DNA of 56,702 nucleotides, taken from Candidatus Woesearchaeota archaeon (GTDB taxonomy: Archaea; Nanobdellota; Nanobdellia; Woesearchaeales; SM23-78). Below the pieces are notes generated by a model that ran no database searches, was not told the DNA's origin, and saw only the letters and a list, made by a program, of their open reading frames with translations. This document shows positions 5,623 to 33,021 of this stretch, in pieces. The DNA lies in contig JAFGRK010000008.1 in assembly GCA_016935175.1 (NCBI GenBank), forward strand, positions 1 to 56,702, read 5' to 3'. Within the stretch, counting starts at the first letter, position 1, and the number at the start of each line of letters is the position of its first letter. Made by a program: the position numbers and the translations under genes.

Positions 5623-5859
5623 TTACTCCTTGACCACTCCCCTATAATATACTATGTCTCCGGCAGTCTTGCTCTTCCTCTTGACCACGATTATGTCGCC
5701 TTCCTTTACATCAAGATGGGCTATCGCAGGGTCTGTGACTAGAATCTTGGGTATTTCGCGAAGAGTCAGGTTGTATTTCTTCATGAGGGCTGAAGCTTCC
5801 TTCTCAGAGAGCTTCTCATGCTCAGGGATCAGTTCATGGCTCAATGCTTTCTTTGACAT
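5623..5859 (-). CDS. rpoH: DNA-directed RNA polymerase subunit H
   Basis: 78-residue archaeal RpoH, equivalent to the C-terminal domain of eukaryotic Rpb5. The sequence HELIPEHEKLSEKEASALM followed by DPAIAHLDVKEGDI is a clear family signature, and the length is normal. GGAG lies about 6 nt before the ATG, and a TATA-like TTATAG on the minus strand (about 5886-5893) lies about 30 bp upstream. It leads the rpoH-rpoB2-rpoB1-rpoA1 operon. The intron-bearing tRNA-Lys gene and its duplicated 3' ends lie directly upstream on the same strand, so read-through from the tRNA is possible. Confidence 0.96.
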   Translation of the reverse strand: MSKKALSHELIPEHEKLSEKEASALMKKYNLTLREIPKILVTDPAIAHLDVKEGDIIVVKRKSKTAGDIVYYRGVVKE

Positions 5860-5889: not shown

Positions 5890-6009
5890 TGAGCCGGACA
5901 ACAGAAAAACTTCGTTTTTCTGAGTCCTCTCATCTCGCTCTGCTCGATGAGCCGGACGACGAACAAAAAACGAGTTTTTTGAGTCGCCGCCTCATCTCAC
6001 TATGCTCGA
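5890..6009 (-). repeat. Two extra copies of the tRNA-Lys 3' end, each with an A/T hairpin
   Basis: On the minus strand the 16-nt tRNA-Lys 3' end plus trailer (6004-6019) recurs at 5942-5957, and its first 9-10 nt recur at 5890-5899. Between copies sit perfect hairpins at 5964-5981 (CAAAAAAC/GTTTTTTG) and 5902-5922 (CAGAAAAAC/GTTTTTCTG). Each hairpin is extended by an imperfect complement of the tRNA acceptor strand (for example CGAC/GTCG, CGG/CCG, GAG/CTC), so each ~60-nt unit is an imperfect palindrome. The function is unknown. Confidence 0.85.
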
Positions 6010-6134
6010 TGAGCCGGACGAGATTTGAACTCGCGACCACTGCATCTCTTTCAGCTAATATGTTAAAAGTGCAGTGCTCTATTGCCCATGCTTTTCATCA
6101 TCATAAAAGGCTTACCAGGCTGAGCTACCGGCCC
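6010..6134 (-). tRNA. tRNA-Lys(TTT) with D-loop and anticodon-loop introns
   Basis: Acceptor strands GGGCCGG and CCGGCTC pair, and the discriminator base is A at 6010. The D-stem is GCTC/GAGC, the anticodon stem CTGCA/TGCAG (6070-6074 and 6040-6044), and the T-arm has GTTCAAAT. The anticodon loop reads C-T-TTT-A then A, giving TTT. Two insertions interrupt it: 33 nt in the D-loop (6080-6112) and 18 nt at canonical 37/38 (6046-6063). Removing both leaves 74 nt, a normal tRNA without encoded CCA. A TATA-like box at 6157-6166 is centred 27 nt before G1. The rpoH operon follows on the same strand. Confidence 0.9.
6080..6112 (-). other. 33-nt intron in D-loop of tRNA-Lys
   Basis: This extra block lies between the D-loop bases AGCCTGGTA and the D-stem strand GAGC. 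It has internal complementarity (CTTTT/AAAAG, GCC/GGC), as expected for a spliced intron. The tRNA only reaches normal length if it is removed. The borders are approximate. Confidence 0.75.
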
Positions 6135-6156: not shown

Positions 6157-6166
6157 GATAATATAC
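6157..6166 (-). promoter_or_regulatory. TATA-like box for tRNA-Lys
   Basis: GTATATTATC on the minus strand is centred about 27 nt before the first base of tRNA-Lys. That is the spacing seen for TATA boxes across the window. Confidence 0.55.
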
Positions 6167-6258
6167 GCCCTGGCCGGCAACAAAAACTGATGTTTTTGAA
6201 TCAGCTTCGGCTGAAAACAAAAACTGATGTTTTTGAGCCGTCCATTGCGTTCTGCGAA
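6166..6258 (-). repeat. Extra copy of the tRNA-Asp 3' end with two identical A/T hairpins
   Basis: The tRNA-Asp 3' terminus (6259-6270 on plus) is repeated exactly over 12 nt at 6166-6177. Between the copies an 18-nt perfect hairpin, CAAAAACTGATGTTTTTG, occurs twice (6181-6198 and 6218-6235), separated by a small TCAGC/GCTGA hairpin. The inner edge (6235-6250) is a degenerate complement of the tRNA end (GCCG, CCA and GCG pair with CGGC, TGG and CGC). The whole unit is an imperfect palindrome of the same design as those beside tRNA-Lys and tRNA-Leu. Confidence 0.85.
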
Positions 6259-10776: not shown

Positions 10777-12690
10777 CTAATAATTAACCATTATCTCTAC
10801 GTCTTCTCCAAAGATGCCCTTGAGGTCCTCAAATATAGGCTCCTTGATGAACACTCTTTCTGGCATCTCTATGCCTGTGAGCGCCTTCTCATATTCCTCT
10901 AGCGAGCTGGATTCCTTGTTGGCGAGCTTGCCAGAAGGCAGTATGTCCGCCTTGGAGATGTCCTTCTCCTCATTGTCAATGTCATGGATGATGAAAGCCC
11001 TCTTGCCCAGCAATACCACTTCCCCGAACTTGCTGCCGTACTTCACTCTCAGCCTGGTCTTCTCAAGCTCAAGGCCTCTCTTGCGCTGGATATACTCAAC
11101 AAGGAACCTTATGAGCTCCCGGGAGTCCTTCTGCACGCTATCAACCTCTGCCTTGGTAAGCTTGCCAGCGTCATAGTCTTTCTTGGCCTTCTCAATCTCC
11201 TTTAGCATGCGCAAGTATTTCTCAGGTATCAATCCCTTGCAAACCACTTCTGTCTCAAATATCTTAATCATCTCGCCATCATTTACCTTTTCCACTCCCT
11301 CAAGCCTGAGGATGTCCCTTACAATGGTGACTATGCTCTCGTAGCTATGCAGCACGCTCTCCCTCTCCTTCTTCTCCTGTATGGACTTGAAGAGCTCCTG
11401 CAGTCTCTTGAGGTATTTCTCTGCATCCTTGATTATCACGTCAACCTCTGCGCCTGTGAGGTCTTTCTTGGCGCCGTGCTCCAAGTCCTTCCTTACCCTA
11501 ATGTTGCGCTCAAGTATCTGCACATACTCCTCCTCGAGCAATTTTTCCTTGGTGACGAATATGTCCCTCATCACATCAGGAGTCTCCTTTGGCGTAGGCG
11601 GAGGGATGCCATAGAGCATCAATGCTGCCTGGCTCGGCGTGAGGATTGCATAGAAAGTGTCTTCCATGCCTATGTCCTTTATCTTGAACTTCACCCTCTC
11701 AATCATCTGGTCTCCTGTGCTCATGAACATGTCAATGGCTTCCTGGCTTGGCTTAATCCTTCCCATCTGCAAGAGCAATTTCCAGGGCATGAATATTCCC
11801 CTGTCATAGAAGGGAATGCCGTCCCTTAGGAAGGTGAAGAATATGGGATTAGCCTCCTTTATCCCCTCCCAGAAGTCAGTCAGGATGTAGACCTGGATAT
11901 TTATCTTGTTCTCAATGCCAGTCATCTTGCCAGCCTCAAAGCCCATGCCAATGATTATAGCCCTTAGCTTGTCCTTGAGCTCAGCCCTAGTCATCTTCTT
12001 TACATCAGTGTCATCAATGACAATGAACACGTCAATATCGCTTGAAGGAGTGGCTTTGCCCTGCACCACGCTTCCAGCAAGCACATAGGCGACAATGTAC
12101 TTCTCGAACTTCTTGAGCACCATGGTCTTGTGTATCTCAGAAATCTTTATTGCTGCGAGCATTCCTGTGTCATGCACTGGCGCGCTCATGGCAATCATCT
12201 GCAAGACTTCGTACTTGGCATCATAGCAAGCCTGCCATACCTCTGTGAGAATCATGGTCTGCGCTGCAAGGTTAGGGTCAATCTCAACTGCCATCTTCTC
12301 GATGATGCCAGCCAGCCTGTCCTTGAGCTCTTCCTTGCTCATCTTCTGCGAGTCAGAATCATCCACTAATACAAGGACATTGATCTTCTCTTTCTTCTCA
12401 TCCTCCTTGTCAGGGGGGAGGAGGGCGACTGCCATTATGTAGCCTTCAAACTTCTCAAGGAGCTTCTTCTTGAAATCATCTAGCTTGTCCTTTATCTCCT
12501 CCAGCTTTTTCTTGGCCTCATCAGGTATCTGCTCAGCAAGCTTGTCAAGCTCATTGCTCAAGCCGCCAGCTTCACCGCTGCCTACGACATCAACAGAGTA
12601 AGACTTCTTGCCAGCAGCCTCTTTTGCTTCAGCAGCCCCTTTGCCTTTTTCCACAGCCTCTACCTTTTCAGCCTTTATTTTTTTCGCCAT
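10777..12690 (-). CDS. Large protein with polymerase-beta-type nucleotidyltransferase domains
   Basis: 637 residues. The N-terminus is Lys/Glu/Ala-rich and charged. A domain at about 75-165 resembles a degenerate nucleotidyltransferase. An intact one at about 195-290 has LAGSVVQGKATPSSDIDVFI, with G-S at about 204-205 and the two metal-binding aspartates in DID. The C-terminal half is helical and charged and was not recognised. The ATG at 12690 is used. GGTGA lies about 8 nt before it, and an upstream copy of that site is separated by two hairpins. Two linked copies of the domain suggest one catalytic and one regulatory copy. Confidence 0.7.
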   Translation of the reverse strand: MAKKIKAEKVEAVEKGKGAAEAKEAAGKKSYSVDVVGSGEAGGLSNELDKLAEQIPDEAKKKLEEIKDKLDDFKKKLLEKFEGYIMAVALLPPDKEDEKKEKINVLVLVDDSDSQKMSKEELKDRLAGIIEKMAVEIDPNLAAQTMILTEVWQACYDAKYEVLQMIAMSAPVHDTGMLAAIKISEIHKTMVLKKFEKYIVAYVLAGSVVQGKATPSSDIDVFIVIDDTDVKKMTRAELKDKLRAIIIGMGFEAGKMTGIENKINIQVYILTDFWEGIKEANPIFFTFLRDGIPFYDRGIFMPWKLLLQMGRIKPSQEAIDMFMSTGDQMIERVKFKIKDIGMEDTFYAILTPSQAALMLYGIPPPTPKETPDVMRDIFVTKEKLLEEEYVQILERNIRVRKDLEHGAKKDLTGAEVDVIIKDAEKYLKRLQELFKSIQEKKERESVLHSYESIVTIVRDILRLEGVEKVNDGEMIKIFETEVVCKGLIPEKYLRMLKEIEKAKKDYDAGKLTKAEVDSVQKDSRELIRFLVEYIQRKRGLELEKTRLRVKYGSKFGEVVLLGKRAFIIHDIDNEEKDISKADILPSGKLANKESSSLEEYEKALTGIEMPERVFIKEPIFEDLKGIFGEDVEIMVNY

Positions 12691-12741
12691 CAAAAATCAC
12701 CCCGCGGTGATTTTTGGGGCACCAAAAAACTCTGTTTTTTG
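12691..12741 (-). repeat. Two A/T hairpins separating duplicated GGTGATT sites
   Basis: CAAAAATCACC/GGTGATTTTTG (12691-12716, perfect 11-bp stem) and CAAAAAAC/GTTTTTTG (12723-12741) lie directly before the gene at 12690. The minus strand reads GAGGTGATTCTT, then both hairpins, then GGGGTGATTTTTGATG. The ribosome-binding region is thus present on both sides of the insertion. The first hairpin buries the proximal copy in its stem, which could affect translation. Confidence 0.7.
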
Positions 12742-12952
12742 CTTGCCAGAAGAATCACCTCTCATATGATAAATCATTAACTATCATTAAACCCTTTACT
12801 AATCCCTATTTACGAGAATAAGCAAGTAAAGGATTGTTTATAAAGGTTATGATTAGAATAGGAGAGAATAGGAGAGCACAACACAGAAAATTAAAAGGGA
12901 AAGGAAAGATAAAAAGAAAAGAAAGCAGAAAAAAATAAAAAGCTTATTGGGC

Positions 12953-27338: not shown

Positions 27339-27565
27339 ATAATGTTTATGCAGATAATTGGCTGCGTTAAAAAAAGTCGCCCTCGGCACCCCGGATGGGG
27401 CAAGCAAAAGCTTTGCTTTTGGTGCCACAAAAATCCAGAGGATTTTTGCCGGCAACCCCCGCCTCTGCAGCCGCCATGCAAGTCATTCGCAAAGGCTCAT
27501 GACATTGCATAGGCTGCAGGCTGCGGCGACTTTTTCAACAAAGCCATAGATAATGTTTATGCAGA
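27339..27565. mobile_element. MITE-like element E2 with terminal inverted repeats and 16-bp direct repeats
   Basis: Perfect 11-bp inverted repeats AAAAAGTCGCC (27371-27381) and GGCGACTTTTT (27525-27535) bound a 165-nt interior. Outside them ATAATGTTTATGCAGA occurs exactly at 27339-27354 and 27550-27565, like a target duplication. The interior has hairpins CAAAAGC/GCTTTTG (27405-27421), CAAAAATCC/GGATTTTTG (27428-27448) and CTGCAGCC/GGCTGCAG enclosing ATGCAA/TTGCAT. It has no coding capacity, so it would need an enzyme supplied elsewhere. A structured RNA is the alternative. Confidence 0.65.
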
Positions 27566-32792: not shown

Positions 32793-32915
32793 GCGGGCGT
32801 GCCGGAAGGCAAAAGTGAGCTTTTGCACCGTCACGCACCGAGTGCAAGAAACTATACATGCGGGCGTGCCGGCAGTCAAAAATCAGAGATTTTTGGGCCG
32901 CCACTCTCCGCTAAC
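32793..32915 (+). repeat. Two extra copies of the tRNA-Leu 5' end, each with an A/T hairpin
   Basis: GCGGGCGTGCCGG, the first 13 nt of tRNA-Leu (32916-32928), also occurs exactly at 32793-32805 and 32860-32872. Each copy is followed by a perfect hairpin (GCAAAAG/CTTTTGC at 32809-32826; CAAAAATC/GATTTTTG at 32877-32895) and then an imperfect complement of the 13-mer (GCGTG/CACGC and CGG/CCG in unit 1; GCGG/CCGC, GTG/CAC and CGGC/GCCG in unit 2). The best TATA box (32741-32750) lies before both, so they should be in the tRNA leader. Confidence 0.88.
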
Positions 32916-33021
32916 GCGGGCGTGCCGGAGTGGAAAACGGGCAGGACTTAAGTTCAAGCCTAAAGCTGATAAGCTATCCTGTGGCTTAGTGCCTACGAGG
33001 GTTCGAACCCCTTCGCCCGCA
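32916..33021 (+). tRNA. tRNA-Leu(TAA) with anticodon-loop intron
   Basis: Acceptor strands GCGGGCG/CGCCCGC pair and the discriminator is A. A long variable arm (TGGCTTAGTGCCTAC) marks a class II tRNA. The anticodon stem is CAGGA/TCCTG and the loop C-T-TAA-G-A. A 23-nt intron lies at 37/38 (32953-32975), leaving 83 nt. The T-arm GAGGG-TTCGAAC-CCCTT is not interrupted, unlike in tRNA-Asp, -Arg and -Thr. Two partial copies of its 5' end precede it. Confidence 0.93.

Follow-up and report, generated by a model that had tools for sequence, protein, structure and literature searches.

Tandem palindromic units that repeat the 3' end of tRNA-Lys ahead of rpoH in a Woesearchaeota genome: probable members of a genus-restricted family of insertions at gene ends

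The repetitive and double hairpin elements of fungal and sponge mitochondria are small, mobile-looking sequences without known function that lie between genes or within RNA genes (PMC2800124). As small, mobile-looking hairpin elements they are the nearest known kind to the units described here. The Allomyces elements have no flanking duplications, whereas the present units are defined by a duplication of the target together with an inverted copy of it; the same paper cites palindromes flanking tRNA genes of Neurospora mitochondria, and none of its hairpin elements is reported there to copy the gene end that it flanks (PMC2800124). Our units resemble the Neurospora palindromes in being short and in flanking tRNA genes. 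The GC-rich palindromes next to tRNA genes in the mitochondria of Neurospora crassa were reportedly described by Yin et al. in 1981; to our knowledge they have one fixed sequence and have not been reported to copy each tRNA's own end.

Rickettsia palindromic elements are likewise small, and are tolerated within RNA genes and, where the frame is kept, within coding sequence. They differ in being larger and conserved in sequence, and are neither tied to gene ends nor built from target sequence. REP/RAYT and PATE elements share with our units the form of an imperfect palindrome with strand polarity, and differ in being extragenic and in not copying their target. The order X-X'-X (a sequence, its inverted copy, the sequence again) with palindromic junctions is also that of tandem inversion duplications and quasi-palindrome template switching. 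These are sporadic mutations, whereas here a hairpin of shared sequence is found at one junction in many loci, and this sharing is more suggestive of a definite element than of sporadic mutation. A literature search of incomplete coverage found nothing on units that copy tRNA or gene ends, and the units, which are real and family-wide, are probably undescribed.

The window, that is, the whole 56,702-nt stretch of DNA analysed, is contig C20 of a 1.22 Mb genome in 35 contigs that is 93.6% complete; the relatives of its RpoB'' place it in the Woesearchaeota. On its minus strand lies a sequence that reads as tRNA-Lys(TTT) after removal of two introns (Table 1); the gene was missed by ARAGORN and its Rfam score was low (17.4 bits). 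As an earlier note on this DNA had claimed, the 3' end of this tRNA (GTCCGGCTCATCGAGC at 6019-6004, minus strand) is repeated downstream. Two further copies are present, in units spaced by 62 nt that are 94% identical across 31 nt, and both the A/T hairpins (5981-5964 and 5922-5902) and the degenerate complements that the note had assigned to each copy were confirmed. On the minus strand the order is X - h - X' - hp - X copy, in which X is the gene end, h a small hairpin, X' a degenerate inverted copy of X and hp the A/T hairpin, which is perfect. The final X copy is followed by TTATAGTAACC, with no T-run there, and rpoH begins at 5859 (minus strand), after tRNA-Lys and both units. The 141-nt tail has a predicted fold of -54.7 kcal/mol (z of -4.35 against shuffled sequence). 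In Rfam 15 the tRNA-Lys units matched no family above the gathering score, the sole match in the window being one tRNA.

Table 1. Positions of the tRNA-Lys gene, its two units and related features (window coordinates unless a locus is named)
Feature	Position	Strand	Remarks
tRNA-Lys(TTT)	6010..6134	-	sequence reading; exon cloverleaf fold, acceptor probability 0.99; weak RF00005 match
tRNA-Lys D-loop intron	about 6112-6080	-	33 nt
tRNA-Lys anticodon-loop intron	about 6063-6046	-	18 nt
X, genuine tRNA-Lys 3' end CGTCCGGCTCA	6010..6020	-	
Unit 1 small hairpin h, TCGAGC-ATA-GTGAGA, tandem G.A mismatches	5995..6009	-	sequence
Unit 1 X', degenerate inverted X copy GATGAGGCGGCGAC	5983..5996	-	complementarity: own X 10, best other 9
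Unit 1 A/T hairpin hp CAAAAAACTCGTTTTTTG, 7 bp	5964..5981	-	
Unit 1 first X copy GTCCGGCTCA	5948..5957	-	
Unit 2 small hairpin h, TCGAGC-AGA-GCGAGA	5933..5947	-	sequence
Unit 2 X' GATGAGAGGAC, position 5 = A opposite G	5924..5934	-	
Unit 2 A/T hairpin hp CAGAAAAACGAAGTTTTTCTG, 9 bp, C-GAA-G loop	5902..5922	-	
Unit 2 second X copy GTCCGGCTCA; as 11-nt copy GTCCGGCTCAT spans 5899-5889	5890..5899	-	
tRNA-Asp tail, copy of own 3' end CCGGCCAGGGCG at 6177-6166; hp 6235-6218 and 6198-6181	6166..6258	-	same grammar, two hp
Antisense units, 5' end of tRNA-Leu (32916-33021, +)	32793..32915	-	two GCGGGCGTGCCGG copies (32793-32805, 32860-32872), each with A/T hairpin and inverted copy
Start-codon unit ahead of ORF at 12690 (-)	12691..12750	-	start-region copy CTGGCAAGC, hp, inverted copy, hairpin with ribosome-binding site
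Start-codon version, L020	7453 to about 7392	-	
Start-codon version, L029	2557-2621		
Start-codon version, L030	about 4900		
Start-codon version, L070	about 1815	-	
Start-codon version, L062	about 2260		

The tRNA genes of this genome and its congeners contain many introns, in the D-loop, the anticodon loop and the T-loop, and some of these introns hold A/T hairpins like those of the units (L025:2062, L076:57, L039:19798). ARAGORN found none of the window's tRNAs and Rfam one. At another locus (L254, contig C20 of genome G005, around position 448) a tRNA T-arm and 3' end are copied in tandem, the T-loop being split by two A/T hairpins and the duplication extending beyond the tRNA end.

The same grammar was seen at 12-14 tRNA genes of this genome and also in congeners, so that the absence of related units elsewhere in the genome, an outcome that the earlier note had considered, does not hold; they occur throughout the genome and the genus. 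The tRNAs concerned, recognised from T-arm reading and hairpin flanks, include those for Ser (two genes), Gly, Leu (three genes) and Asp, and units also lie at other genes, whose T-arms are disrupted or unassigned (L006, L014, L027, L062). The window hairpins at 6172-6236 belong to the tail of tRNA-Asp, the upstream neighbour of tRNA-Lys, and the first 13 nt of the tRNA-Leu gene at 32916 are present twice more upstream of it. Units are in sense orientation at tRNA 3' ends and antisense at 5' ends, and thus always point away from the gene. Some outer X copies have decayed while the inner copy is perfect: decay or truncation of the outer copy was seen at L099 Asp, at the Leu genes, at L006 and at L234, where the discriminator is missing. 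Searching the genome with the whole 141-nt tail gave short partial matches only, because the copied part differs from one tRNA to another, and hairpin scans were therefore needed. Hairpins with an A-rich 5' arm numbered 146 in the genome, compared with 24 in a first-order Markov control.

Copying of tRNA ends was then counted in 21 tRNAs of the genome that had been located independently, with ends and flanks swapped between genes as the control; this is the independent test of the unit family. The last 9 nt were copied within 150 nt downstream in 4 of the 21, and the 5' end was copied upstream in 4 of the 21, each against a swapped-partner rate of 0.3-1%, and thus far more often than by chance. 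In a group of 80 rpo neighbourhoods the swapped-partner rate was 5-7% because its tRNAs are of few types, and only long exact copies were therefore counted there.

The inverted copy is specific to its target. Its complementarity score averaged 7.4 with its own X and 4.5 with others (sd 1.1), and in 27 units with the usual loop, X' and X paired at positions 4, 6, 7 and 8 in 100, 81, 93 and 93% of cases, as against 46, 53, 48 and 39% for swapped partners. Position 5 was mostly unpaired, with A.G in 10 of the 27; this pattern is compatible either with one uninterrupted X'-X helix containing an A.G mismatch or with two separate hairpins and an unpaired A. In 27 of 30 units there is an internal loop, 1x2 or 1x3, at the base of hp. 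Since the 24-30 units used were hand-picked for showing the grammar, these pairing figures describe the family and do not test its existence. By eye, C-GNA-G loops, a kind of stable DNA minihairpin loop that closes 18 of the 1734 perfect triloop hairpins genome-wide, were noticed in h. Compared by eye, the flank TTGTTGTCC did not fit the integron attC core GTTRRRY.

The same layout also lies ahead of several ORFs, where it copies, exactly or partly, the start codon and codon 2. From names read from the sequence, we take these ORFs to encode enolase, uS12, elongation factor 2, an MBL-fold protein and, for the window ORF at 12690, a nucleotidyltransferase-like product. For the first three and for the window ORF, the start-region copy opens a frame of 18-19 codons whose TGA overlaps the true ATG, and the true ribosome-binding site sits within the second hairpin of the start-codon units. 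Leader frames such as MDNKKQSFLDPQKSGGDF and MANKKQSFLVPPKITRGDF begin with codons resembling those of the gene that follows, and most of these frames end in a TGA overlapping the real ATG. The enolase and uS12 starts carry a unit here and are plain in readable congeners; judging from these sequences, the start-codon insertion at both is lineage-specific.

We searched the 287 genomes of the order with two strict cores, and all matches fell in the window's genus. The core ACGGCY-hp-NYTGCCG had seven matches in 4 of the 287 genomes, all seven at tRNA ends. The core GGACTC-hp-GTTGTCC had seven exact matches in 3 of the 287, one of them being hp and flanks of unit 2; four of the seven lie at tRNA 3' ends, two seem to lie antisense at the starts of proteins, and the seventh is an array. 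Reversed-pattern controls for both cores gave no matches in the same 287 genomes. In other Woesearchaeota too, a copy of a tRNA 3' end lies 55-105 nt downstream (L109, L115, L116, L165, L176), and at L116 and L176 a similar X-h-X'-hp-X order is built from different sequence.

The gene order tRNA-Asp, tRNA-Lys, rpoH is widespread among relatives, and filled and empty orthologous sites were seen between species of the genus. The tRNA-Lys tail is absent from the five nearest relatives that keep tRNA-Lys before rpoH (L098, L099, L100, L101 and L102, of which L101 ends at a contig edge and shows only tRNA-Lys and rpoH); the tRNA-Asp tail was seen in the window, L098, L099 and L102 but is missing from L100. 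This presence and absence of tails fits lineage-specific insertions rather than conserved control of read-through; the earlier note had suggested that the units may affect read-through into the polymerase operon. Occurrence of the same units at other tRNAs, antisense at tRNA 5' ends and at protein start codons likewise speaks against such a role, and control of the RNA polymerase operon by the units is not supported by the sequence comparison. In L099 the outer tRNA-Asp copy is truncated and therefore cannot be a functional 3' end there. In L098 both the X copy and X' of tRNA-Asp track a base change in the tRNA.

Other repeats were noticed in the course of these comparisons. In a distant relative (L109, 500-600) at least the last 14 nt of tRNA-Lys are repeated about 75-90 nt downstream, and the filler resembles the tRNA-Lys D-loop intron of L107. 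At L276 (contig C24 of genome G006), units of GTCCAGTG, hairpin and inverted copy form an array that has no obvious tRNA beside it and resembles palindromes of L016 and L033. A further family of hairpins, larger and modular in build (GGGGGTCGCAAGC-hp-GGTGCGCC-hp-AGCGCCCC ... GGGCGACTTTTT), occurs at window positions 27363-27503, at L017 8997-9153, L020 3616-3731, L042 4309-4406 and L062 7078-7235, and elsewhere; BLAST gave 47 loci with at least partial similarity, and the window copy had no Rfam match.

We consider it probable that the tRNA-Lys feature is a tandem pair from a family, restricted to the genus, of short palindromic insertions of DNA at the ends of genes. An insertion, of about 50-70 nt, would duplicate 9-20 nt of the gene end (X ... 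X) and so leave the gene intact; between the X copies lie the inverted end copy X' and the A/T hairpin with its 1x2 or 1x3 loop, giving X-h-X'-hp-X, a micro inverted triplication. Polarity is constant and outward at tRNA 3' ends, tRNA 5' ends and protein starts alike. It follows the gene end and not the direction of transcription, an argument for an origin in DNA, which may have involved two successive fold-back template switches or some hairpin-specific enzyme. A direct duplication of 9-20 nt with an inverted copy between two hairpins is the product expected of two such switches. The placement before rpoH would then be incidental, and the tail would be a trailer removed by tRNase Z. Against this reading, neither Y1_Tnp nor RVT_1 was found in this 93.6% complete genome as a candidate enzyme, the conserved mismatch at position 5 is unexplained by simple copying and could be an unpaired linker between two RNA hairpins, and the tracking of the tRNA base change at L098 Asp could mean a constraint at the RNA level. 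Tentatively, and with rather low confidence, we also entertain a lineage-specific process or enzyme acting on DNA that would recognise the ends of genes, whether tRNA 3' ends, tRNA 5' ends or start codons, and write there a target-templated palindromic element unlike known transposons. The element would consist of a direct and an inverted copy of the end together with a hairpin of fixed mismatch, and would make a tRNA-end folding switch as well.

The tails might instead be functional RNA in which X' pairs with the real 3' end and the outer X takes over the acceptor stem, a folding switch setting tRNA maturation or the processing of the transcript before the next gene. In RNAfold, whose energy model is one of equilibrium and ignores co-transcriptional folding and modification, the acceptor-stem probability fell from about 1.0 to 0-0.7 in the presence of the tail for most tailed tRNAs, namely Lys (full 121-nt tail), Ser, Ser2, Gly, Leu and Asp of three congeners. 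Most untailed tRNAs hold at least 0.85 with 70 nt of flank, although L049, which has no tail on its 3' side, also scores near 0; for tRNA-Lys the value falls only with both units included, and for some tRNAs it recovers with longer flanks. The tails are thus predicted to compete with the tRNA acceptor stem and may play a part in tRNA maturation. The position-5 A would fit a linker between the two hairpins of the alternative fold, and the structure of the Asp tail is retained in several species. However, the tRNA-Lys tail is not kept in relatives, the conserved strand features flip with respect to transcription at tRNA 5' ends and start codons, and outer X copies have decayed as listed above. 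Taken as the reason for the tails, such a switch appears unlikely to us.

Close to the idea of the earlier note, the units could act as bidirectional terminators or insulators, their A-tract/T-tract hairpins stopping transcription between tRNA-Lys and rpoH. Each hp offers a T-run on either strand, and the genome is enriched in A-armed hairpins (see above). Yet the T-run is just 5-6 nt and lies inside the stem, relatives have no units at the tRNA-Lys/rpoH junction, and units also occur ahead of start codons, within a short reading frame. A hairpin followed by a T-run and conserved at the junction, the mark of an intrinsic or bidirectional terminator, was not found here, and we regard this explanation as quite improbable.

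We give still less credence to REP-like elements moved by a single-strand hairpin transposase of the Y1/RAYT type. The units are indeed short, imperfectly palindromic sequences whose mismatch is conserved and whose polarity is fixed, and Y1_Tnp (PF01797) is present in two of seven genomes of the genus; but it had no match in this 93.6% complete genome (G000), and we know of no REP element that copies its target. Leftover attachment sites of site-specific integrations at tRNA 3' ends are very improbable: the copied stretch, from the 3' strand of the T-stem to the discriminator, is a usual integrase target, but the inverted copy and conserved hairpin between direct copies would be unexpected, as would the 60-nt spacing and the units at tRNA 5' ends and protein starts.

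Other candidates were rejected. An archaeal tRNA intron with the outer X as true 3' exon was attractive as the arrangement preferred by RNAfold, and was rejected because of the wrong bulge order and the decayed outer copies; by inspection, the strand of the 4-bp helix has its bulge of 2-3 nt before the helix, which is the reverse of the order in a bulge-helix-bulge. For a retroelement-derived insertion, the reverse transcriptase family RVT_1 (PF00078) had no match in the same 93.6% complete genome and was present in three of seven genomes of the genus. The units also do not behave as a MITE, as the length of the duplication varies from about 9 to 26 nt and the shared sequence is a short core only; an autonomous partner was sought as Y1_Tnp and RVT_1.

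If the units are, as we favour, palindromic insertions copying gene ends, a DPANN genus carries a palindromic element built partly from the end of its target gene. Its targets would be indispensable genes (tRNAs and those for enolase, uS12 and elongation factor 2), and tailed tRNAs are predicted to need early removal of the tail to fold. Such an element would add a new route by which small insertions persist in compact genomes.
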